Shown here piece after piece: positions 5,977 through 64,000 of a stretch of DNA of 64,000 nucleotides; position 1 is the first letter of the stretch, and each line of letters starts with the position of its first letter. The DNA is from Buxus sempervirens. Taxonomy: Eukaryota > Streptophyta > Magnoliopsida > Buxales > Buxaceae. The stretch covers positions 23,250,329-23,314,328 of the forward strand of contig OX387189.1 of the NCBI GenBank assembly GCA_947561395.2, written 5' to 3'. The notes beneath the pieces are model-generated. The model was not told where the DNA came from and made no database searches. It worked only from the letters and a program-made list of their open reading frames with translations. The translations under genes and the position numbers were made by a program.

Positions 5977-8030
5977 GTGGGAGGTACTATATTTATTTCT
6001 GGTCATTCTGCCATGAGCTTATTTGATTCGGGAGCTACACATTCATTTATTACGCCTGATTGTGCATGCCATATTGGGTTAATACCTTCCTACCTAGAGT
6101 CTGTTTTATCTATTTATACACCTTTGGATGAGACTAGTGAGGTGGAAACAATCTATAGGGACTGTATGATTAGATTAGGCAAGATGGAGTTGCCTGGAGA
6201 CTTTATTAGTCTGAATTTTAGTGGATATGACGTGATATTGGGCATGGACTGGTTGTCAAGACACCATGTGATTATTGACTGTCATAATAAGTTAATCACA
6301 GTTAGTAAACCGGATAGTCCAATCCATTGCTTCATAAGTCAAGGGTTGAATACCCGCATCAGTTTGGTTGCTTCAGTAGAAGTAGAACCAATGAAGGGCA
6401 AGGAGATGAGTATTGAAGAAGTGCCGGTAGTCCGTGAGTTCATAGAGGTATTTCTGGATGATCTACTTGGGTTGCCACCCAAGATCCAACTTGTGCCTGG
6501 CACACATCCTATTTCCAAACAACCCTATAGGATGTCCAGACCTGAGTATGATGAGTTGAAGATACAGATTGATGATTTGTTAACAAAGGGGTTTATTAGG
6601 CACAGTGCATCGCCTTGGGGTGCACCGATGTTATTTATACAGAAGAAGGATGGAAGTATGAGATTATGTATAGATTACCGACAGCTAAATCAAGTGACTA
6701 TCAAGAACAAGTATCTGTTGCCAAGGATAGATGGTCTTTTTGATCAGTTGAAAGGAGCCTCCTGGTTTTCTAAGATAGACCTGAGATCAGGTTATCACCA
6801 GTTGAGAGTAGCTCCAGATGATGTAGAGAAGACAATGTTTCATATGAGATATGGCCACTTTGAGTTTTTGGTGATGCCGTTTGGGTTGACGAATGCCCCG
6901 GCAGTCTTTATGGACTTGATGAACTGAATATTCCACGAGTACTTGGACCACTTTGTGGTTGTCTTCGTAGATGATATCTTGGTCTATTCGAGGACGAGGG
7001 AAGAGCATGAAGGTCATCTTAAGGTGGTATTGTACACTTTACGTAGCCACCAGTTGTATGCCAAGTTTAGCAAGTGCCAATTCTGGTTGAAGCAAATCTC
7101 CTTCCTTGGGCACATCATATATTGAGAGGGCATATCAGTGGATCCATCCAAGGTAAAGGCAGTAGCAAACTGCCCTAGACCTACCACTGTTTCAAAGATC
7201 CGCAGCTTCTTAGGAATGGCTGGGTATTACCGTAGATTCATTGAGGGGTTTTCTTAGATTGCCACCCCATTATCCAATTTAACCAAGAAGACTGTGATTT
7301 TTCAATGGGATAAAAAGTGTGAAAATAGTTTCCAAGAGCTAAAAAGCAGGTTGACATTAGCCCTAGTTTTGATTATTCTAGCTGTGAATGAGGGTTTTGC
7401 AGTGGCATCGGACTAGGCTGTGTATTGATACAGAGTGGTAGGGTAGTGGCATATGCTTCATGACTATTGAGGCCACATGAACGTAATTACCCTATGCACG
7501 ACCTTGAGCTTGTAGCCATCATGTTTGCCTTGAAGATTTGGCGACACTACCTCTTTGGCACACAATTTGTGATATACTCAGATCACAAAAGCCTAAGGTA
7601 TACCTTCTCTCAAAGAAATTTGAATATGAGACAAAGAAGGTGGTTAGACCTGTTGAAAGACTATAGATTTGATATTCAGTATCACCCCGGGGAAAGCTAA
7701 TGTGGTAGTGGATGCACTGAGTCGCAATGGAGTTTCAAATGAGTCCATTGCCACCCTAGCATCATTTGTGGCTAGCCAGTGCAGTCTTGTAGCTACAATT
7801 AGAGATTGGCCTGGAGAGTTCCAACTCTTTAGTCAGGGTGTGAGTATGGCTAGTATGCAGAGGATCAAAGAGAGATAGTTATCAGATCCTGAATTGCAGA
7901 AAACAAGGGAGTTGATGAGTAGAGGTTCAGAGAAGGCCAAGGACATTAGTATCAGTGAGGACATGTTGAGATTCAGGGGTAGAATCTGTGTACCCAATGA
8001 TGATATCAAGAGGGTAATCCTGGAGGAAGG
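5977..8030 (+). pseudogene. Protease, reverse transcriptase and RNase H of element A
   Basis: Domains in order: aspartic protease with [10 protein letters not shown] (about 6018-6047); RT with LCIDYRQLN and the active site FVDD (about 6964-6975, the YxDD motif with Phe); and RNase H with SDHKSL near 7580 and VDALSRNG near 7707. The linker to integrase ends at FRGRICVPND...LEEG, where S1 is inserted. Breaks include TGA at 6925 (expected Arg), TGA at 7123, further stops near 7255 and 7417, and a frame change near 7690. Several stops look like CGA to TGA changes, as expected from deamination of methylated cytosine. Confidence 0.9.
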
Positions 8031-10689: not shown

Positions 10690-11195
10690 CAACTAAAACC
10701 CTTAGGGTGTACTTAAGGCATACCAGGGGGTACCTTAGTGTTATTCGAGGGGGTACCTTGGTGTTAAGCTGAGGGTACCTTAGTGTTATTTGAGGAATAC
10801 CTTAGTGTATCAAGGGGGATTTGCCTTAGTTACTCAAGAGGTGATACTTTAGGTAAACTTCAAGGGTACCATAGTTATACAAGAGGGGGGGGGGGGGTAC
10901 CTTGATTATTGAAAGGTGTACCTTAGTTATACAAGGGTGTACCTTTAGGTAATACAAGGAGGTATACCCTAGGTTATGGAATGGGTGTACCTTAGTAATA
11001 TAAGAGGGTACTCTAATTATACAAAGGGGGGTCCCCTAGCTGTATAAGGGGGGTGTACCTTAGGTATTCAAGGGGTACATTAGCTAAAACAGTGGGGGGT
11101 ACCTTAGCTATAGAAGGGATGTACCTTAGGTGTATGAGATAAGTACCTTAGTTATACAAGGGGCTATACCTTAGGGTAAACAGGGGGTTACCTTA
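10690..11195 (-). repeat. GGTACCTTAGG minisatellite, part 1 (in S2)
   Basis: Degenerate tandem repeat of about 20-27 bp around the palindromic core TACCT-T-AGGTA, separated by G-runs. One spacer has a run of about 13 G at about 10886. The array is cut here by S3 and resumes at 14273. Confidence 0.85.
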
Positions 11196-14272: not shown

Positions 14273-15300
14273 ATAGGGGTTACTTTAGTTAGACAAAAGG
14301 GGGTACTTTGGCTATATAAGGGGTGTACCCTAGGTAAAACAGTGGGGGTACCTTACTTATATGAGAGGAGTACCTCTAGGAAATACAAAGGGTGTACCCT
14401 AGGTAATATAAGGGATGTACCTTAGGTATGTTGGAGGTACTTTAGGGATATAAAGGGGGTACCTTAGCTGTATAAGGGAATGTACCTTAGCTAAATAAGG
14501 GGGTACTTCAAGTAAGACGGTAGGGTACCTTAGTTAAAATAAAGGGACACCTTAGGCAATAGAAGTGAGGTACCTTAGGTATAGCTAGGGGATACTTTAG
14601 GTATTCGAATGGGGTACCTTGGGCAAAACAGTGGAGTACCTTAACCAATATGAGTGAAGTGCCTTGGGTAATACAAGGGGATGCCTTAGGCAAACACAAG
14701 GGGGATACCTTAGGCAAACACAGGGGTACCTTAGGTAAATGAAAGGGGATACCTTAGGTAAACACAGGGGTACCTTAGGTAAATGCAAGGGGATACCTTA
14801 GGTAAACCCAGGGGTACCTTAGGCAATTAAAGTAGGGTACCTTAGGTGAAACAGTGGAATACCTTGGGTGTACTTTGGGCACACAATGGGGGTACCTTAG
14901 GGATACAAGTGGGGTACCTTAGGTAAATCAAAGGGATACCTTAGGCAAACATAGGGGTACCTTAGGGATATAAGTGGAGTACCTTAGGCAATGTGAGTGA
15001 GGTACCTTGGACAATATAAGAGGGTACCTTAGGGATAATTAGGGGATACTTTAGGTATACTTGAGTGGTACCTTGGGTAACACTTGGATATACTTTGAGT
15101 AATACATTGGGGTACTTCGGGTAATACATGAGGTACTTTAGTGGCATTTGGGAGGGTACCTTGGGTAACCTTAGGAGGTTCTTTAGGTAATCTTAGGAAT
15201 TACTTGAAGTACATGTGAGAGGTACCTTGGGTACACTTAGATGAAGATTTGGGTACACTCAGAAGGTACTTTAAGTATACTCGGGAGATGATTTGTGGTA
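14273..15300 (-). repeat. GGTACCTTAGG minisatellite, part 2 (in S2)
   Basis: Continuation of the degenerate array after S3, about 1 kb with more than 30 units. Alternating longer units carry AAACACAGG or AAATGAAAGG spacers. The small open frames here are by-products of the periodicity. Confidence 0.85.
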
Positions 15301-50639: not shown

Positions 50640-51300
50640 CCTCTATCCGATGACGTAGGGGTAGGCCTCCAGATCGGATTTTAGCAGAAAGTCAATTTTT
50701 GGCTCCGTTCAAGTTTGACCGCCCGCAAAACCTTCATCCGGACCCCGATTCCGGCAAACTCAGTTGCGTTGGAACCATGTTAAGATTCTCTATCCAATGA
50801 CCTAGGGGTAGGCCTCTGGATCGGATTTATCAAAAAGTCAACTTTTGGCTCTGCTCAAGTTTGACCGCCCGCAGAACCTTCATCCGGACACCGATTCCTG
50901 CAAACTCAGTTGCGTTGGAACCATGTCGAGATTCTCTATCCAATAACCTAGGGGTAGGCCTCTGGATCGGATTTTAGCAGAAAGTCAACTTTTGGCTCTG
51001 TTCAAGTTTGACCGCCCGCAGAACCTTCATCCGCCCGTAGAACCTTCATCCAGACCCCGATTCCTGCAAACTCAGTTGCATTGGAACCGTGTCGAGATTC
51101 TCTATCCAATGACCTAGGGGTAGGCCTCTGGATCGGATTTTAGCAGAAAGTCAACTTTTGGCTCTGTTCAAGTTTGACCGCCAGCAGAACCTTCATTCGG
51201 ACCCCGATTTCTGCAAACTCAGTTGCATTGGAACCGTGTCGAGATTCTCTATCCAATGACATAAAGCGAGGTGGCCAATTTTCACTTGATCAAAAAGTCA
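50640..51300 (-). repeat. U3 tandem repeats with W-box motifs in S10
   Basis: Four copies of a unit of about 150-165 bp near the start of the minus-strand LTR. Units contain AGTCAACTTTTGGCTC and CAAGTTTGACCG, i.e. two TTGAC(C/T) cores per unit. By position this is the U3 enhancer region. Similar single segments are in S1 (8060-8340) and S9 (52390-52680). Confidence 0.75.
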
Positions 51301-51849
51301 ACTTTTCACCCCTTAGGCTTTGACTTTCTGTCCAGGGTTTGCATTTTTGGTTTTTCTGGGAGCGCAAAAATGAGGTGCTTACACCATGATAAGAACAGCA
51401 GATGTATGACACTAGAAAAGAAATAAAAAGTGCTCAAATCATGCTAATATTCAGGTATGTTAAATAAAAATACACAAGGGAACTCACCTTGAGTTTACAA
51501 AACTGTTTAGAGTATTCTTGACCTCCTCTATGGCTGGAGCAGCACTTGAGCAGCACTTCCTCTTCTCCAAATGCACTCCAAAGATCTCCTTTAGTGTTTA
51601 GAAGGAAGATAGAAGTGTAGAGAATGGATTAGAATAGATTTGAGTAGGGTTTCAAGGCTTGAGATGGGGTTGGAGTGGGTTTTGGGATCATTTGGATAGG
51701 GTGGGGTTGCTGGAGAAAAGGGAGAGAGGTTGAAGAGAATGGGTTGAGAGAGATGAGTTGGGAGAGATGGGAGCAACAAATGAGCTCCCTCCTTACGTAT
51801 GGGGTTTTGGGAGGCTTTTATTATGGGGTGGCATGGGAGATGCATGCAT

Positions 51850-54106: not shown

Positions 54107-54510
54107 TGTGAAACCCCAGATTTCTATACCATTAGCACACCCTAAACAGAGTAATTTATTGTGTAGGTGAAGTTGGAGAAGCTCAGACACGAAGCCAACC
54201 AAGTGGCTAAGTCCAGGTTCGTCAATAATGTGTAAAGGTAAGCAATCCCAAGACTAGTAAATAAATTTAATTATCGAGACGAATAATGGCTAAGTGGTGA
54301 TTTTTGTGTGCAATAGGAGGAGAGTGGCAAAGTTGAAATATCTTGGTGTTTTGAAGGAGAAGGGCAAACTTGTCATTTGTTCGTGTGAGTGGGATTGGGA
54401 GGAATAAGAGAAGGGGTTTTGCCCCATACGTATGAACCTCGGGCAAACCCCCATTCTCTTCTCTTCTCCTCTCATTCTTCTCCCCACTCTTCTCTCCCAC
54501 ACTCTGTTCT
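54107..54510 (+). repeat. Start of the 3' LTR of element A, cut by Tat-E
   Basis: Begins TGTGAAACCCC and shares blocks with S6, such as GTGTAGGTGAAGTTG and GGCTAAG. Interrupted at 54510 by Tat-E. The remainder lies right of the window. Confidence 0.88.
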
Positions 54511-54629
54511 TGTAGACACCCCAAATTGCACTACAAAATGAGAAAATAATAAAAACATGTAATTAGAGCTTAAAACAGGTCAAAAAAGCCTAAAAATAGA
54601 ATGAACAGGCTTTGCCCGTATTTTCTTCA

Positions 54630-54703
54630 CGGGCCTATCGCGCCCGAAAGTTATCTACGGGCAGGCGCGCCCGTAGTACCAATACGGTCACTATTGGACC
54701 GTA
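54630..54703 (+). repeat. Three hairpins of the ACGGGC family in the Tat-E LTR
   Basis: CGGGC - CTATCGC - GCCCG (54630-54646), CTACGGGC - AGGCGC - GCCCGTAG (54655-54676) and TACGGTC - ACTATTG - GACCGTA (54683-54703). All are perfect. The change GGGC/GCCC to GGTC/GACC is compensated. Confidence 0.85.
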
Positions 54704-54918
54704 GTGCATTTACGGGCATTAAAGACACGTGCAAGTTTTGTCCTTCTCTCGATTTCCAAGCTTTATTTGAAGTCCAATATATCTTTAAACGAGCGGATTA
54801 TGTCTTTTATTCGCTGAAGTCACCTTGGTTGGCTATGGATGGGCATTATCTCTGTATTTCACTCTATCCTGAGAATCAGGATATATCCTTCTGGACCAGC
54901 CTTGCCCCTGGGTGTGTC

Positions 54919-54926
54919 TATAAATA
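54919..54926 (+). promoter_or_regulatory. TATA box of Tat-E
   Basis: TATAAATA followed by AGAGGC, about 410 bp into the LTR. Transcription would start about 30 bp downstream, leaving the 54630 hairpins in U3. Confidence 0.7.
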
Positions 54927-56316
54927 GAGGCTCATTCCTCTAGCTAAGGGCCACGAAATTTTGAAGAATCAAAAGCTCCAAGAGAAGGAAAGGAATCCCT
55001 GCTGCTCTGCCTGCTCAATCCAGGTAAGTCCCCTATCCTTTTTTATTTTCTGTCTTCAATTCTAGAAGTAATAGGATCATCTCTATTGCTGTAGAATAAG
55101 GCCATATCTGTTTTTGTATTCCTAAACCTGCCTCCAAGTACCTCAAGGGTCTCTCTAGCCGTAAAACGTGAAGAGAGAACTAGGGGAAAGGGGAACAGGT
55201 GGATCCCTAGAATAGAACCCTATATCTGTTTTTTTTTCTTAGAATAAAGCTTGTGATTGTGTTTGTGTAACCAAACCTATCTCTAAGTACCTCAAGAGTC
55301 TCTCTAGCCGTAAAACGTGAAGAGAGAACTAGGGGAAAAGAGAACAGGTGGATCCGTAGGGTAGACCCCCATGTGCTCTAATATGTGAGATGTGGCTGTT
55401 TTAAATATTCTGATCATGTTTTAATGCTTTTTATGATGAATCTGAATGAATACATGAATCCATGATGTTTATAGCATGAGATCCCCTATTTTTGATAAAA
55501 TTTGGATTTTTCACATATTTGCACCTACAGCACTGTTTTCGTGATTTTTGTGGTTTTAGGCTAGGATCTTGGATTTATCATGATCAATATGGTAGATCTG
55601 AATCCAGAAGCCTAAAAGTAAATTCTAGGGTTTCATGATATGGTTTTTAAATCGTTTTTAATTATTGAGAGAAAACCCTACGGTCTAAATTCTCCCCTTT
55701 TGGTGTTTTTCATCAACGTAGGTATTTTCGGTTTTGATTTGCAGATTTAATGTGAAATTTGGGCTTTAACTATGACCTGGACTATTCAAGTTCAATTTTG
55801 AAATATTTTATAAAAATCATATTTTTCTAGATTTCTAGAATTTTGACTTGAAGCCAGATTTTTGGATTTTTCACTTTAAATTGATTTTATTTGATTTTAT
55901 CTCAATTTTGTTTTGATCATGAAACCCTAGGAATGGTATGATCATGTTTAATAGTTCTGGATCAATCAGACTATTCATATGAAAAAACCATACAATTTTT
56001 GTCTTTTTTGTGATTTCGTGTGATTTTTATAGCAAGCTTTTTCCTTTATTTTAAACATGAACAATACCTGGCAACCACCTTGTGTGGATGAATAGGGGTG
56101 CCTAACACCTTCCCTTGTTCATAACTTAATCCCCTTACCCATCTCTGGTTGTTTTTTTTAGGAGGGATATTTTGCCCTAAAATTTGCCTTTTGTGCTTAT
56201 TTAATATTTTGGTGTCCATTCACACCTAAATTGAATGGTGGCGACTCTTTGTTTTATATAATCCCGTGTGATGATTGAGGAAATCATTGGATTGATTTTT
56301 TCCCATGTCTCACAAC

Positions 56317-56335
56317 TGGCAACTCTGCTGGGGAC
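56317..56335 (+). other. Primer binding site of Tat-E
   Basis: TGGCAACTCTGCTGGGGAC two bases after the LTR. TGG is the complement of tRNA CCA. The following bases resemble the TGGCGACTCC complement of a tRNA-Arg, with mismatches. The tRNA identity is from memory. Confidence 0.75.
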
Positions 56336-57557
56336 TTGTGGATTTGAGCCTTTTTGGTGTTTTTGTTCATGTTTTTGATATTTTTGGATTTGCTTGCTAT
56401 TTTGTGTTCTTAAGCTTGTTGAGTATATTTTAAATCTGAATTATTGCTTAGGAATTCATGGGGGTAGAAACATGCTTAACTTTGATTTATAGGATTGTTT
56501 CTACAAACATGCGTAGGGGAGGTCCGTTTGGTTGAACCATGCTTATTTCTTGCTATATTTTTATGATAGCATGTTTTAATTTTCAGCATGATCTCCATGA
56601 TGATTTTGGGTGTATAACATGATCATATGTTTTCATGATAGATGATTTTTATGAGCATGTTGTTTTGGGTGCTATAGGATTGCCTTATTTACTTGTTTAT
56701 TTTAAATATGCTTTCCTATTATGCCTTGGTTTGTTTATGCATGGCTGCGAAAGGAGTGGCAAGGGTTTGGGACGTTGTGAATGCACCCTATTTTTTACAA
56801 TGCACTGTGCACCTTTTATTTTTTACACAGCCTACCCTTAACCTATAGGAAGTTGAACCCGAATGTGTGTAGCTTGGCGCAACGAGGTCGATACTTCGGA
56901 AAGCGAAAGTGAAAACATTCACCTTAAAACTTTGAGCTAATGATGTGATGATAATGTGGATCTGGGATTCTGGTCATCACTAGGCTTGAGTACTAAGTTG
57001 CCATTAAGCCAAAACCCAAAACCCCTACGCTTGAAGGTGGAGTTACACGTTTTCGGCTAAATTACACAATTACGTGGGAATATGGGGTTGTATGATTGTG
57101 GGAAGGCCGTGTGCATGGCTTACAAACCAGGGCATAATGCGGATGCCATATTGAAGGTAAACAAGGTAACAAGGTAATCCTATTGTTCTGCATTATTTTC
57201 ATGTCATAGGGGTGTCATGGTACCCATTGGTTCGGGATAAAATTGGTCCCAAAATTTACATGTTTTTAAAATTGGTGCAGCCCATAGGAAGAGTCTCTAA
57301 CTCTGTTTAGAATCAATCCTACCCTATGTTCATACAAGAGGCAACAAAAGGGTACCAAATTCTTGAGTATGGTGTCAATTTGGAGGGTGCATGTGCCTTC
57401 CTAAGCATGTGTTTTAGCAAAAAGGCCAAGGTCCACTTTGGGACAGTTTAGAAGCTCTGCAATGGGTGAACCGTACGTTTGGATGAACAATGAAAGTGAT
57501 CAGACCATGTAAAAACTGGAAAAACATAACAAGGTTCCGTAAAACCGCATTTAGTAC
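56336..57557 (+). other. First half of the Tat-E 5' leader
   Basis: Non-coding RNA leader between primer site and hairpin arrays, rich in T and in CATG words. Nothing recognisable as a gene; the 68-codon frame at 56635 has no known domain. Confidence 0.6.
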
Positions 57558-57661
57558 ACGGGCTGGGCTTGCCCGTATTAGTTATACGGGCTAGGCTCGC
57601 CCGTGTTTTCCATACGGTCACGGCTTGCTCGTAATTTGAATACGGGCAGGGCTGGACCGTA
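57558..57661 (+). repeat. Leader copies of the ACGGGC hairpins in Tat-E
   Basis: ACGGGC - TGGGCTT - GCCCGT (57558-57576), ACGGGC - TAGGCTC - GCCCGT (57586-57604), an imperfect ACGGTC/GCTCGT unit, and TACGGGC/GACCGTA (57641-57661, one mismatch). This is the same stem family as in the LTR of this element. Confidence 0.8.
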
Positions 57662-57840
57662 CTGTGTATACGGTTTTCTCGGAATATTCAACTTTAATCA
57701 GTTTTTTCCACTAAAATCTTCCTTTAACCCTTAAATAATGATAAAGGGAAACAAGTTTGAATAAAATGCTTCAAAAAAAAAACAAACAAACAAACAAAAT
57801 AATTAAAAGAAAAAAATGTGAGAGAAAGGTTCCTTGGGCT

Positions 57841-58712
57841 TCTGAAAGCCTTTGAATTTCAGACTTTTTCTCAAAAAAACTCTTTGGGCCTCTGAAAGCC
57901 TTTGAATTTCAGACTTTTCCTCAAAAATCCTTTGGGCCTCTGAAAGCCTTTGAATTTCAGACTTTTCCTCAAAAAACTCTTTGGGCCTCTGAAAGCCTTT
58001 GAATTTCAGACTTTTTTCAAAAATATCCCTGGGCCTCTGAAAGCCTTTGAATTTCAGATCCTTTTTCCTTTTCGAGACCTGTTGGAAGCCCTAGAATATT
58101 CCAACAAACCTTTTTGGGCCGTCTAAAAGCCTCTGAATTTTAGACAAATCATTTCTTTGGGCCATCTAAAAGCCTCTGAATTTTAGATACAACCTTTTTG
58201 GGCGATTTGAAAGCCTTTGAATTTCAAACATCAACCTTTTTGGGCCGTCTAAAAGCCTCTGAATTTTAGACAAATCATTCCTTTGGGCCGTCTAAAAGCC
58301 TCTGAATTTTAGACAAATCATTTCTTTGGGCCATCTAAAAGCCTCTGAATTTTAGACACAACTCCTTTGGGCCGTCTAAAAGCCTCTGAATTTTAGACAA
58401 ATCATTTCTTTGGGCCGTCTAAAAGCCTCTGAATTTTAGACAAATCATTTTTTTGGGCCGTCTAAAAGCCTCTGAATTTTTGACAATTGATTTCTTTGGG
58501 CCGTCTATAAGCCTCTGAATTATAGACACATATCCTTTGGGCCTCTGAAAGCCTTTGAATTTCAGACATTTTTCAAAAATATCCTTGGGCCTCTGAAAGC
58601 CTTTGAATTTCAGACTTTTTCCAAAAACACCCCTGGGCCTCTGAAAGCCTTTGAATTTCAGATCCTTTTCTCTTTTTGTAGGACCTGTTGGAAGCCTTAG
58701 AATATTCCAACA
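57841..58712 (+). repeat. Array of about 20 hairpins with conserved loop GCCTYTGAA in the Tat-E leader
   Basis: Units every 30-55 bp, usually after TTGGGC. Stem types: TCTGAAA/TTTCAGA (57841, 57891, 57939, 57988, 58036, 58544, 58592, 58640), GTCTAAAA/TTTTAGAC (58121, 58247, 58290, 58374, 58417), ATCTAAAA/TTTTAGAT (58164), TTTGAAA/TTTCAAA (58206), GTCTATAA/TTATAGAC (58503) and TGTTGGAA/TTCCAACA with longer loops GCCCTAGAATA or GCCTTAGAATA (58080, 58686). Two units (58334, 58460) have one mispair. It ends about 180 bp before the gag start. Confidence 0.92.
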
Positions 58713-58896
58713 ATTCTAAAAAAAAAGAAGCAAATAAAGAAAGAAACAAATCCAAACTCGTGTTCACCCAGCTTGCACATAGGCATACATAGGCATGTGA
58801 ATGAGATTAAATTGGCACTGATATTTTCACTTTATTTTTCCAGGTACCAATACACTTGCAATCATAGCTCCTGTAACCAGATCAAGAGCTCGAGCC

Positions 58897-61800
58897 ATGA
58901 ATCCCGTTGAAGATGAAGTTGATGATCCTCATCCAGATGTTGTTCTACTCCAAGAACAAGTGGCAGGACTAGCCCGAATGCTAGAGAACATTCTGTCAGT
59001 ACAGGCCCAACAAGTGCAGGCCCAACAAATGCAGGCCCAGAACCAGGCATCCACATCCAACCCTGCACCTCAACCCCAAGTCAACGTTCCACCTCCAGTG
59101 CAACCAACTCCTGAACCCGTCTATGAACCCACCCCTGAACCTATACTGACCAGGGATGAGACAGCTGAATCAAACAAGGCTAAGGAAAAGGAAAGGATAA
59201 GGGAAGAGGTTGAAAGAAAGTTCATGCATAAGTTAGAAATGATCCAAGATGAACTAAGGGAAGTCAAAGGGGTAAACAACTTTGGAGGCACCAATTTTGA
59301 AGACCTGTGCCTATACCCCAATGTTAACCTGCCGGCTAAGTTTAAGTGCCCAGACTTGGACAAGTATGATGGCACTGGTTGCCCCATGAGCCACCTAAAG
59401 TTGTATTGCGGTGCCCTATGCCAGTTCGGGCAGGATGAGGGTATCTTGATCCAACTTTTCCAAAGGAGCCTGACTGGAACCGCATTAAGATGGTTCGCCA
59501 CTCTGGACCATGGAAAGATCAAAAGATGGAAAGACCTAGCCGATGCCTTCCTGGCTCAATACCGGTTCAATTCAGAGATCATGCCAGATAGGTACGACGT
59601 CATGAGAATGAGCAAAGGAAGGGAGGAGACTGTAAGGCAGTATGCCAAGAGGTGGAGGGAGACGGCCTCCCAGGTCAGGCCACCCATGCTAGAACAGGAA
59701 ATGATTTCTACTTTCATAAGCACTTTGGGTCAACCATTCTACAGCCACTTGGTGGGTCAGACCACCACTAATTTTGCAGCTTTGGTTCAGGTGGCTGACC
59801 GAATTGAGGATGGAATAAGGTCAGGTAAGATAATTGACCACTCTGCCATGGTTAGCCAGCAGGACCCCAACCTAAAGAAAGGAAGCGTGACAAAAAAGAA
59901 TGGGAACAAGAAGGAGGGTGAGGTAAACATGGTACAGCCACCATCTGGCCCTAACAAGCCCATACAAATCAACGTACCCGCTCATTTTCCTACTCCATCT
60001 CCACCTACCCAGGCCCCTATGAGGGTTAATGTTCCAACAGCACCTTCAGACCAAAAAAGGGTTTTTACCAAAGAGGAAAAGGATGCCTATTTTGCAGTAA
60101 GGAGAAATAGGGTTTTCACCCCTATTCCCATGACTCCCTCTCAATTGCTGCCCACTTTATTGCAAGGAGGGTATATCACCTTAAGAGAACCTAATCCGAA
60201 TGCATCTAAGGGGAGAAATTTTGACCCCTCCACCACTTGTGATTACCATATGGGTGCACCTGGGCACCCTACAGACAAGTGCTGGCCTTTGAAACATGCC
60301 ATTCAGGATTTACTGGACCAGAATACCCTGTCTTTCAATACAGGGGCGCCCAATCCTCCAAGAACCGATATTGGACAAAATCCACTGCCTCAGCATCACG
60401 GGGCAGGCCCATCTAATGTCATAGGAGTCATCTCTTCTGACAAAATAACCTTTGACCCATCTCAATTAATTGCTCCCATAGGGACAACGGTCAAAGTATA
60501 TTTTGACAGGAGAAGTGAAGGCAAAGAAATAAATATGATTTCAAAGGGGAATGATAGTGCTGCAAAGAACATTAGCTCATCTTTGGACCGGGTCTCATCC
60601 CTCATGGCCCAGATGAACATCACCAAGCCACCTTTGGTCATTAATTGCCATCCATCCACTTTTACTCCGCCCATTCAGTCTAAGCCACCATTGGTCATAA
60701 ATTGTGACCCCCTTAGTGCATCAGTCACTTCTGCAAACCCCCAACCAAAACAACTTCCTCCATTGGTTGTTAATGTTCCTATTACTCAGACTTCCATCGC
60801 CAAGTCCAAACTTCCCCCATTGGTGGTGAATGTCCCTAAGCCTTCCTACATTGAATCGGCTGTACCATGGAACTACAGTGAAGCATTTACTACTACATGC
60901 CCTGCAGCTGAAAACAAGGAAGAAGTGAACCTCATGATGAGGTCAGGAAAATGTGTAGGGGTGGAAGAAAAACAAAAAGAAACAGAAAAGGAGAAGGAAG
61001 AAGAAAAAAATAAAGGCAAGGCCAAGGTAGGGGAAGAGGCCCCTCAGGTAACTAACAGTGAGGCTGCTGACCTCATGAAGGTAATAAAAAAGAGTGAGTT
61101 CAATGTCATCGAGCAATTGAACAAAGTCCCTGCCCAGATCTCAATTCTGGGACTATTGTTAAATTCTGAAAAACATAGGGACTCCTTGTTAAGGATACTC
61201 CAGGGGGCCCATGTGCCTAAAAACATTGAACCAGACCAACTAGGCCGGATGGTTGGTCAAATTTTATCCCATAACGTCATAACCTTTTCTGAGACTGAAA
61301 TCAGTCCAGCAGGGTACCATCATGTTGACCCATTGCATATTGCTGTGCTCAGTAAGGGTTGCATGATAGCCCGGGTCTTGATTGATAATGGGTCAGCCCT
61401 CAATGTCTGCCCGTTAGTAACCTTTGTTAAGCTCAATCTGGAGCGAAACAAAATAAAGCAAAATGGAAGAATTATAAGAGCATTTGACAGCTCTAAGACA
61501 CACTCCCTAGGGGAGGTTGAATTGCCGGTCACAATTGGACCGTATATTTTCAACATCACATTTGAAGTGATGGATATACCTGCAGCCTTCAACCTACTCC
61601 TAGGAAGGCCGTGGATTCATATAGCTAGGGCTATACCATCTACCCTCCACCAAAGAGTCAAGTACATTAGAGGGCAAAAGGTGATTACCGTCCTGGCCGA
61701 AAATTTGGTTCCCCCCATGTGGTCCCCTGATGTACCCTGTATTAACACGGAAATGACAGCAGATAAGATGGCATTTCACTCTTTTCAATTTGAAGCTGTG

Positions 61801-62871
61801 AATTATATACCTGGGGGGTATCAGCAAAAAGAAGGAAAATTGACCTGTGCTGAAAAAATGGTCAAAAATGTATTAGAAAAGTACCATTTTCACCCTGGAA
61901 AAGGTCTGGGGGTTAACCTACAAGGAAGGATAGAACCAATACAGGTTAAGAAGATGGTTCACAGAGCAGGATTGGGGTCCAAACCAAGGAAGTGGAGAAA
62001 ACAGGGGCAGATAGAAGCTATGAAATTCCCTCATATCAGGGAAACTTTTCCAAAGCTTTCTCACATGATTCAACTGTCTCCTCCTGAGGATCAATCTAAA
62101 CCTCCCTACTACAATGTCAACCCATTCCAGAAACCCAAACCCTCCACAATACAACCATATGTTCCACCTCCACCTCCACAAGCATTTGGTGGGCCTGGGT
62201 CACAGGCAGAACAAAAGCAGGATTTTTCTGAGGACGTAGGGGCATTCTTTGCCATGACAGAAGGCAACCAAGAAAAAGTAGCGGAGGAGCTACCTTTTAT
62301 TGATTGGGCTGCAGTAGAAGTTCCATCTGGAACTGGCCCTACAAAAGAAACAGGCAATGCAACTCACCCAGTACTGGTGATTTCTGATGCAGACCATGAG
62401 CTCGAGGAGCAGGCTTGTATCCCTGCCCCAGATTCTTTCATTCTGAATAATTGGGAGGAAACTCCCCTTACTTTTGAAGCCGCGTTTGTTTGGCAAACAG
62501 ACATGGCTTCCAAAAAAAAAACTCCATTAGTGGAATGCCCTTTTCCTGAAGGTTTTAATGAGCCTTCGTCTTCAGGGAAAGATTTTGTAGAAGGCTCTCA
62601 AAAAACACAAAAAGATTTTTCAATTTTTTCTAGAAAAGATAAAGTTTTCAAAAAGGTCCAAACCATTTATGAACCATATAAGCAAACGGAATTGGATCAG
62701 GATGAGTATGACTTCGACCTTGAGCTCGACTTTGACCTAATGGGGGTGGAAGAAGAGACCGAGGACGAAGAAGACGACGTTCCAAAAGAAATCACATATC
62801 AATTAGAGCGTCATGAAAAGGGGGTCCAACCCAATATTGAAGAGACCATATCTATCAACCTAGGGACCTAA
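58897..62871 (+). CDS. Gag-protease polyprotein of Tat-E (1324 aa)
   Basis: Domains by residue: retrotransposon Gag capsid (about 134-310, with WFATLDHGKIKRWKDLADAF); a zinc-knuckle-like CDYH...GHPTDKC (about 448-462); a low-complexity section with repeated PPLVVNVP (570-650); a Lys/Glu-rich stretch (about 690-712); aspartic protease with VLIDNGSALNVCP (Asp about 829) and FNLLLGRPWIH (about 905-915); a G-patch-like GKGLGVNLQG (about 1000); and an acidic tail (about 1286-1299). Gag packages the RNA and the protease cuts the polyprotein. The in-frame upstream codons IAPVTRSRARA (from ATA 58864) look like coding sequence, so the ancestral start may have been there. The frame ends in TAA directly before RT. 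Confidence 0.9.
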   Translation: MNPVEDEVDDPHPDVVLLQEQVAGLARMLENILSVQAQQVQAQQMQAQNQASTSNPAPQPQVNVPPPVQPTPEPVYEPTPEPILTRDETAESNKAKEKERIREEVERKFMHKLEMIQDELREVKGVNNFGGTNFEDLCLYPNVNLPAKFKCPDLDKYDGTGCPMSHLKLYCGALCQFGQDEGILIQLFQRSLTGTALRWFATLDHGKIKRWKDLADAFLAQYRFNSEIMPDRYDVMRMSKGREETVRQYAKRWRETASQVRPPMLEQEMISTFISTLGQPFYSHLVGQTTTNFAALVQVADRIEDGIRSGKIIDHSAMVSQQDPNLKKGSVTKKNGNKKEGEVNMVQPPSGPNKPIQINVPAHFPTPSPPTQAPMRVNVPTAPSDQKRVFTKEEKDAYFAVRRNRVFTPIPMTPSQLLPTLLQGGYITLREPNPNASKGRNFDPSTTCDYHMGAPGHPTDKCWPLKHAIQDLLDQNTLSFNTGAPNPPRTDIGQNPLPQHHGAGPSNVIGVISSDKITFDPSQLIAPIGTTVKVYFDRRSEGKEINMISKGNDSAAKNISSSLDRVSSLMAQMNITKPPLVINCHPSTFTPPIQSKPPLVINCDPLSASVTSANPQPKQLPPLVVNVPITQTSIAKSKLPPLVVNVPKPSYIESAVPWNYSEAFTTTCPAAENKEEVNLMMRSGKCVGVEEKQKETEKEKEEEKNKGKAKVGEEAPQVTNSEAADLMKVIKKSEFNVIEQLNKVPAQISILGLLLNSEKHRDSLLRILQGAHVPKNIEPDQLGRMVGQILSHNVITFSETEISPAGYHHVDPLHIAVLSKGCMIARVLIDNGSALNVCPLVTFVKLNLERNKIKQNGRIIRAFDSSKTHSLGEVELPVTIGPYIFNITFEVMDIPAAFNLLLGRPWIHIARAIPSTLHQRVKYIRGQKVITVLAENLVPPMWSPDVPCINTEMTADKMAFHSFQFEAVNYIPGGYQQKEGKLTCAEKMVKNVLEKYHFHPGKGLGVNLQGRIEPIQVKKMVHRAGLGSKPRKWRKQGQIEAMKFPHIRETFPKLSHMIQLSPPEDQSKPPYYNVNPFQKPKPSTIQPYVPPPPPQAFGGPGSQAEQKQDFSEDVGAFFAMTEGNQEKVAEELPFIDWAAVEVPSGTGPTKETGNATHPVLVISDADHELEEQACIPAPDSFILNNWEETPLTFEAAFVWQTDMASKKKTPLVECPFPEGFNEPSSSGKDFVEGSQKTQKDFSIFSRKDKVFKKVQTIYEPYKQTELDQDEYDFDLELDFDLMGVEEETEDEEDDVPKEITYQLERHEKGVQPNIEETISINLGT

Positions 62872-64000
62872 GATGACCCAAAAATAGTGAAGATTGGGGT
62901 ATGCCTATCTGAGGTACAGCGGGATGAAATGATGCGATTTTTGGCTGATTATGAAGATGTGTTTGCATGGTCGTATCGGGATATGCCGAGGTTAGACACA
63001 GATATGGTGGTGCACAGGCTACCCATTCTACCAGATGCCAAGCCAGTTAAGCAGAAACTGAGAAGGTTAAAACCTGAATGGACATTGAAGGTTAAAGATG
63101 AAGTGGTTAAACAATTCCAAGCCGGATTCTTAGCAGTTTCCACATACCCCGAATGGCTTGCAAATATAGTGCCAGTGCCAAAGAAGGATGGAAAGGTCAG
63201 AATGTGCGTAGATTATAGAGATTTGAATAAGGCAAGCCCAAAGGATGATTTTCCACTTCCACACATAGACATTTTAGTGGACAACACTGCTGTACATAGC
63301 TTGTTCTCATTCATGGACGGCTTTTCTGGTTATAATCAGATCAAGATGGCTAAGGAAGACCAAGAGAAGACAGCCTTTATCACCCCTTGGGGTACCTTCC
63401 ACTACACTGTCATGCCATTTGGACTTAAGAACGCTGGGGCAACCTATCAGAGGGCCATGACAGCCTTATTCCATGATATGATCCATAAGGAGATGGAGGT
63501 CTATGTGGATGATATGATAGCCAAATCATGTGAAGAAGAAGACCACTTGATCAACTTGAAGAAGGTATTTGACCGGCTTAGGAAATACAGTCTAAGGCTT
63601 AACCCTGCTAAATGTGTCTTTGGGGCTACATCAGGAAAATTGTTGGGCTTTATAGTAAGCAGAAGAGGAATTGAGATTGACCCAGCTAAAGCTAAAGCCA
63701 TCATTGAAATGCCATCACCTAGAACCGAGAGGGAAGTTCGGGGCTTTCTTGGAAGGATTCAATACATAAGCCGGTTCATAGCACAGCTCACCGCTATCTG
63801 TGAACCAATTTTCAAACTTCTAAGAAAGAATAACCCGACAGTCTGGAATGATGATTGCCAAGAAGCCTTTGACACAATAAAGGAGTATTTATTGAACCCA
63901 CCAGTGCTAGTACCACCCACTCCAGGAAAGCTATTAATTCTATACTTGTCAGTTTTGGAGACATCAATGGGGTGTGTCTTAGGACAGCATGACGATACAG
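62872..64000 (+). CDS. Reverse transcriptase of Tat-E (partial, runs off the window)
   Basis: Same frame as Gag-protease, directly after its TAA, open for 376 codons to the window edge. RT motifs in order: FAWSYRDMP; VPVPKKDGKVRMCVDYRDLNKASPKDD split over about 63171-63248; FMDGFSGYNQI; FGLKNAGATYQ; the active site YVDD (about 63502-63513); and LGFIVSRRGIE. The RNase H start is reached near GKLLILYLSVLE. No frameshift or stop is seen. RT copies the element RNA into DNA. Without the preceding TAA the two frames would be one Gag-Pol. Confidence 0.92.

Follow-up and report, generated by a model that had tools for sequence, protein, structure and literature searches.

Tandem hairpins with covarying stems upstream of gag in a plant Tat-type retrotransposon as a possible mark of genomic RNA

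Why would a plant retrotransposon carry about twenty hairpins, alike in their loops and different in their stems, between its primer binding site (PBS) and gag? To answer this question, the hairpins, the element around them and their relatives were analyzed in a 64-kb stretch of DNA (64,000 nt, hereafter the window). The window contains the 5′ part of an LTR retrotransposon, of plant type as judged from its protein relatives, in the order LTR, PBS-like stretch, 2.5-kb leader, gag-pro, and reverse transcriptase (RT) (Table 1). The first-pass annotation had located the array between the PBS and gag, and this was correct, for a PBS-like stretch.

Table 1. Coordinates of the element and of its hairpin array in the window (slashes separate stem arms and loops or, at splice sites, exon and intron).
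Feature	Position	Strand	Details
5′ LTR	54511..56314	+	TG...CA ends read directly
TATA box	54919..54926	+	TATAAATA; pattern search
Predicted splice donor	55021..55029	+	CAG/GTAAGT, intron from 55024; rank 1 of 3306 GT sites (window, + strand)
PBS-like stretch	56317..56334	+	position 2 nt after LTR end
A-rich tract, 5′ border of array	57765..57832	+	63% A
A-type units 1-5 (block 57836..58058)	57836-57863, 57886-57913, 57934-57961, 57983-58010, 58031-58058	+	GGGC + TCTGAAA/GCCTTTGAA/TTTCAGA
E-type hairpin 1	58080..58106	+	TGTTGGAA / 11-nt loop / TTCCAACA
B/C/D/F-type units, first five of 10 (block 58116..58527)	58116-58145, 58159-58188 (C), 58200-58228 (F), 58242-58271, 58285-58314	+	
B/C/D/F-type units, last five of 10 (same block)	58328-58357 (C, A.C mispair), 58369-58398, 58412-58441, 58455-58484 (B, U.U mispair), 58498-58527 (D)	+	
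A-type units 6-8 (block 58539..58662)	58539-58566, 58587-58614, 58635-58662	+	
E-type hairpin 2	58686..58712	+	
A-rich tract, 3′ border of array	58713..58760	+	62% A
Predicted splice acceptor	58818..58843	+	TTTTTCCAG/GTACC, pyrimidine-rich, intron end 58843; branch-point-like CTGAT by eye; rank 6 of 4113 AG sites
gag-pro frame	58897..62871	+	Retrotrans_gag, zinc-finger-like C-x2-H-x5-H-x4-C, DNGSA protease motif, G-patch
Reverse transcriptase frame	62872..63999, runs off window	+	RVT_1 E = 2.1e-32

No second LTR copy was found in the window (blastn of 54498-56313); the 3′ end of the element, with any paired LTR and PPT, is outside it, and the window ends within the RT/RH region. Transcription is predicted to start about 30 nt 3′ of the TATA box, near 54949. 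A direct repeat of 115 nt (86% identical) is present in the LTR at 55109-55372, 3′ of the TATA box. The gag-pro and RT frames are open and in the same frame, apart from one stop codon (62869-62871) that separates them. The zinc-finger-like and protease motifs of gag-pro were spotted by eye. 3′ of the protease motif, a G-patch domain was detected at about 61861-61980 (PF01585, E = 8.2e-07), a domain found in LTR elements of several dicots and also noted for type D retroviruses (PMC9289625). In Ogre, the known intron separates GAG-PROT from RT (PMC6317226), and splicing near the gag end has been described for BARE (PMC3735527). An Ogre-like intron between pro and RT was unsupported here, with a best donor score of only 3.2, so that this junction, with one stop and poor splice sites, differs from that of Ogre.

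The Gag protein search returned 24 matches, each with a plant as its named source, and the best was 42% identical (Tetracentron sinense). Gag was 30-42% identical to 11 aligned plant proteins, including those of Lathyrus oleraceus and Tetracentron. The best of 7919 RT matches was 76% identical, and the named organisms among the 120 matches listed were plants. Following the first-pass annotation, we provisionally assign the element to the Tat clade of Ty3/gypsy. An additional archaeal-type RNase H after RH is a feature of Ogre/Retand elements (PMC6317226). The C-x2-H-x5-H-x4-C motif of Gag was present in seven of the 11 aligned homologs (P0001, P0002, P0010, P0011, P0012, P0016, and P0019); P0007 has C-x2-C-x4-H-x4-C in its place, and the alignment of P0005, P0021, and P0022 excludes this region. 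The residues 5′ of the gag ATG look like the translated sequence of two Tetracentron gene models (P0001 and P0007), in both of which VTRSR precedes the matching Met; P0005 starts at that Met. Because of this resemblance, a Gag start exactly at 58897 is uncertain, and the Gag of relatives may begin upstream of the matching position.

Relatives of the array were not found in the collections searched. In a viral contig collection, a scan with the array pattern gave eight stretches with one match each, about as many as we estimate chance could give, and no relatives turned up in searches with Gag, RT, and an alignment of RT. The array pattern and the RT alignment likewise found none in a genome contig collection. 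tblastn with the A2 and A3 proteins found no second Tat leader in the window; besides this element, it found a pol piece (116-340) and a more distant RT (6400-7736). An Rfam search of 54400-60000 gave three matches (E 0.46-0.98), all far below the gathering score.

The array was earlier estimated at about 20 hairpins, and exactly 20 tandem hairpins were counted at 57836-58712 on the + strand. The loop GCCTYTGAA, said to be shared by each unit, is present in 18 of them; the other two, the E-type hairpins, have an 11-nt loop instead (GCCCTAGAATA or GCCTTAGAATA) between the arms TGTTGGAA and TTCCAACA. The 18 units fall into five stem types: A (TCTGAAA/TTTCAGA, n = 8, with a stem of 7 pairs, not 8), B (GTCTAAAA/TTTTAGAC, n = 5, and a sixth unit with U.U inside the stem), C (ATCTAAAA/TTTTAGAT, n = 1, and a second unit with A.C at the outer pair), D (GTCTATAA/TTATAGAC, n = 1), and F (TTTGAAA/TTTCAAA, n = 1). 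Their order along the array is five A units, one E hairpin, ten B-group units, three A units, and one E hairpin, so that A units followed by an E hairpin are seen at both array ends. A block duplication inside the array (57969-58072 versus 58573-58676, 92% identical) explains part of this order. The two mispaired units reported earlier are real, with A.C at the outermost pair in one and U.U inside the stem in the other; the C unit and its mispaired sister seem to record two stages of a single compensatory change. The identity of Y in the loop tracks the stem, with GCCTT in all nine units whose fourth pair, counted from the loop, is G-C and GCCTC in all nine with A-U there. Across the whole window, a covariance model of the unit picked up these 18 only, plus one chance-level match (E = 4). 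It did not pick up the first E hairpin, in front of which, by eye, GGGC is absent. Coding as the source of the conservation was rejected, because the loop-to-loop spacing of 40-50 nt shifts the reading frame.

Separate repeats were seen elsewhere. Inverted-repeat clusters with variable but matched arms (ACGGGC..GCCCGT, ACGGTC..GACCGT) are present at 54614-54717 (U3, 5′ of the TATA box) and 57558-57674 (+ strand, leader). Two divergent arrays with a unit of about 22 nt (GGGGTACCTTAGG...) at 10725-11195 and 14297-15138 flank an insertion, as judged by eye, and a tandem array with units of about 146-166 nt is present at 50641-51306.

The covariation of the stems was evaluated with the 18 units (11 distinct rows, all from one element), leaving out the two E hairpins. 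Both arms were changed at four of the eight stem pairs (1 of 500 shuffles as high), 90.9% of cells were paired compared to 84.3% after shuffling, and the covariation score was 0.241 compared to 0.106; neither of the last two values was reached in any of 500 shuffles. The earlier observation that the arms change together was thus confirmed within this one element. When the register was slid, only 13-50% of cells paired, and RNAalifold recovered the same stem with 7 pairs. Further pair types were not in excess, since 410 of 500 shuffles had as many. In a simulation with nine arm changes, four matched pairs appeared in 2 of 2 million trials, a figure that assumes independent substitutions and a change count from our own parsimony. 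The independent covariation events number only about four, all within one array. In 19 of the 20 units, the hairpin was perfect over 7 bp or more (loops 3-12), compared to 0-2 such hairpins in each of 50 mononucleotide shuffles, an excess that mostly reflects copying.

Furthermore, the unit core, defined as GGGC through the end of the 3′ arm, was compared to the linkers. The pairwise mismatch was 0.009 in the core and 0.286 in the linkers for A units, and 0.082 and 0.309 for the B group; this contrast may be partly mutational, because the linkers are low-complexity sequence. Variable columns in A units amounted to 1 of 28 in the core and 10 of 22 in the linkers (Fisher p = 0.0005; eight units, six available linkers). 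In the ten units of the B group, the corresponding values of 11 of 30 and 9 of 13 were not significantly different (p = 0.09), partly because the changes counted in this core are compensatory. The conserved block begins at GGGC rather than at the stem. Covariation and a fixed core between drifting linkers support a structured unit kept by selection, and the array is probably a maintained RNA structure.

The predicted folding energies of single hairpins were -2.4 to -9.0 kcal/mol. The z-scores of single units were modest for A (-1.2 to -1.9), -3.4 to -5.2 for intact B, C, D, and E, and -0.8 to -2.2 for F and the two mispaired units. The whole 901-nt region did not exceed its shuffles in stability (z = -0.78, with 4 of the 20 equally stable), and the arms of like units can also pair between units. 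With a span of 50, the intended stems had a mean probability of 0.66; the value was 0.47 at a span of 100, 0.49 at 200, and 0.50 in the global fold. Two units, whose loops are at 57848 and 58468, did not exceed 0.17 in any setting. Hairpins of the minus strand were about equally stable, and three units were more so.

An H-type pseudoknot forms when loop bases pair outside their stem and the spacers are able to span the grooves. GGGC precedes the stem in all 18 GCCTYTGAA units, with a 1-nt spacer in 17 units and a 2-nt spacer in the other, and it is complementary to GCCT, the loop bases 1-4; neither partner varies among the 18 units. In this geometry, GCCT would directly adjoin the stem, and five loop bases would remain to cross. 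The stack sum of GGGC/GCCU is -8.3 kcal/mol, and those of stems A, B, C, D, and F are -8.1 to -11.8 kcal/mol. In random letters of array composition, and for a hypothesis framed after the data were seen, a complementary site of this kind with no fewer than three G-C pairs had a probability of 0.0018 in that geometry and 0.012 in any register; for a 4-bp match of any sort, counting G-U, the probability in the same geometry was 0.064. The E hairpins are without GGGC; by eye, the second has a 3-bp substitute only and the first has none. The complementarity could also be a by-product of the origin of the repeat, because GGCC is palindromic and GCC recurs before both TYTGAA copies of the A unit. 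The 18 units are perhaps closed into H-type pseudoknots through GGGC/GCCT pairing. The array was first read as a structured RNA that presents many identical loops, perhaps as a binding platform. The structured unit and its presence in genomic RNA are supported, and the reading as a whole is partly so; a platform of identical loops is plausible, and the loop may instead pair with the GGGC preceding the stem.

The presence of the array in the genomic RNA leader, as claimed earlier, was supported and can be stated more sharply, because a predicted intron of 3.8 kb (55024-58843) encloses both the PBS-like stretch and the array. Therefore, the array would occur in unspliced genomic RNA only and is expected to be missing from spliced mRNA. 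The splice sites were ranked with an ad hoc matrix built from general plant splice-site frequencies, in which the acceptor at 58843 ranks first within 54900-59300. The T content is 35% in the predicted intron and 19% in the flanking pieces, of which the downstream one is mostly gag; the U content of plant introns is described as exceeding that of exons by about 15% (PMC3735527). All 76 ATGs preceding the gag ATG fall within the predicted intron, 74 of them upstream of the array, and the ATG-free exons by themselves are weak evidence, since 24% of random 75+53-nt leader pieces are also ATG-free. Splicing would remove the PBS and the array, so that the spliced RNA could serve Gag translation and not reverse transcription. 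A comparable arrangement is that of Diaspora, whose leader is also long and for which donors were predicted within the LTR and acceptors on either side of the gag start; the Diaspora passages of PMC1142308 mention no array. According to the same paper, an intron upstream of gag was unreported in any LTR retroelement as of 2005, and the present element would provide an example.

Among known systems, the psi/leader stem-loops of retroviruses, located between the splice donor and gag and needed for Gag binding and encapsidation, would likewise be structured leader elements of unspliced RNA only, if the predicted intron is right. However, the retroviral signals are a few distinct stem-loops, whereas the array consists of about 20 near-identical modules. 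In RSV, the packaging signal precedes the splice donor (PMC5035971). In Ty3, Ty1, and HIV-1, packaging and dimerisation gather in the structured 5′ end of the RNA; in the yeast elements Ty3 and Ty1, primer functions cluster there as well, and Ty1 has a functional pseudoknot (PMC11381356). The passages of that source on these elements leave a tandem array unmentioned and describe the cis-acting packaging sequences of yeast Ty3 as "not precisely defined" (PMC11381356). The repeats of Sireviruses (Ty1/copia) resemble the array as short palindromes in 8-32 copies per element in the non-coding DNA of plant LTR retrotransposons, but their motif is located in the LTR and before env, with a short spacer and mostly a CGG-CCG core (PMC2829016). 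The array here is in a Ty3/gypsy leader and has a 9-nt conserved loop and covarying arms. A CGG..CCG palindrome is absent from its units and present in the U3 and leader clusters, whose ACGG..CCGT repeats are closer to the Sirevirus palindromes than the array is, though the element is Ty3/gypsy. The 3′ UTR repeats of Tat/Ogre elements share with the array that they are tandem, non-coding, and of the Tat lineage; they are hypervariable (PMC7004042), whereas the array is upstream of gag and has a conserved hairpin core. Among the titles and abstract openings listed in a literature search, none described an array of hairpins upstream of gag. The points that appear new are the predicted intron context and the GGGC/loop complementarity.

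Several explanations other than a mark on genomic RNA were considered. The repeats might be binding sites of an enhancer in the transcribed leader, with their dyad symmetry serving DNA-binding proteins. TGGGCY boxes correspond to the 'site II' elements of plants, to which TCP factors bind; the array contains 17 of them on the + strand and 0 on the other, compared to 1 and 1 in the leader between the PBS and the array. CGG..CCG-type palindromes are also present in the U3 and leader of this element; the Sirevirus palindromic repeats 5′ of the TATA box were interpreted as possible transcription activators, and the reference list of the same paper cites a leader enhancer of Drosophila copia (PMC2829016). 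However, a DNA-binding protein should fix the arm sequence, and the arms here vary provided they match; the array is also about 3 kb downstream of the expected transcription start. An enhancer is rather unlikely. In quasipalindrome correction, one arm templates the repair of the other, and the array might be a functionless repeat that grew by template switching in reverse transcription, with its arms matched by such repair. The block duplication, the few independent stem types, and the inter-unit pairing that competes with the hairpins are consistent with this, as are the hypervariable tandem arrays commonly held in Tat/Ogre 3′ UTRs (PMC7004042). However, drift should affect core and linker equally, contrary to the contrast in the A units (although low-complexity linkers may mutate faster), and templated repair leaves the fixed loop and the fixed GGGC unexplained. 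We consider neutral growth doubtful as well.

The array might also control splicing or export, by restraining the leader intron or by recruiting an export factor, and thereby let unspliced RNA enter the cytoplasm. It is located in the predicted intron about 130 nt upstream of the acceptor and itself contains another strong acceptor-like site (58681, score 7.7), and Cer1 of C. elegans needs its own protein for the export of unspliced genomic RNA (PMC10309623). However, the loop and stem show nothing specific to this role, and intron use itself is just predicted. Such control is improbable. Control of translation, through a ribosome shunt or internal entry on the unspliced RNA, would fit the position of the array within the longest ATG-free stretch of the leader (979 nt, 57816-58795, + strand), and the leaders of plant pararetroviruses are long, with short upstream ORFs and structure (PMC5902531). 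It is very unlikely given the 74 ATGs upstream of the array, the weakness of the single hairpins, and a predicted splicing event that would solve the same problem.

Our preferred reading, held tentatively, is that the array is a multivalent cis-acting RNA element of this plant Tat-type Ty3/gypsy retrotransposon, possibly marking genomic RNA to be bound by Gag, packaged, or dimerised. From the repeats, covariation, fixed core, position, and complementarity, we infer splicing, folding in the cell, Gag binding, and packaging as follows. Transcription would begin in the LTR near 54949. One form of the RNA would be spliced from 55024 to 58843, lose the PBS, the array, and every upstream ATG, and yield an mRNA with a short leader for Gag-Pro translation. 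RNA left unspliced would retain the PBS together with roughly 20 structured repeat modules, 18 of which would offer one surface composed of GGGC, a 7-8 bp stem, and GCCTYTGAA, perhaps as an H-type pseudoknot. Gag, with its zinc-finger-like motif, could bind these modules many times over, so that the genomic RNA would be selected, packaged, and perhaps paired. A narrower version appears improbable, namely that about 18 H-type pseudoknots with identical surfaces, whose second stem may change provided that it stays paired, form a multivalent packaging and dimerisation signal in a retained 5′ intron together with the PBS. If this narrower version is true, the plant element would have a retrovirus-like split between a spliced Gag mRNA and an unspliced genomic RNA, achieved via a repeat-array psi. 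If the array is present in unspliced RNA only, its countable, near-identical modules would make the packaging of a plant LTR retrotransposon testable.
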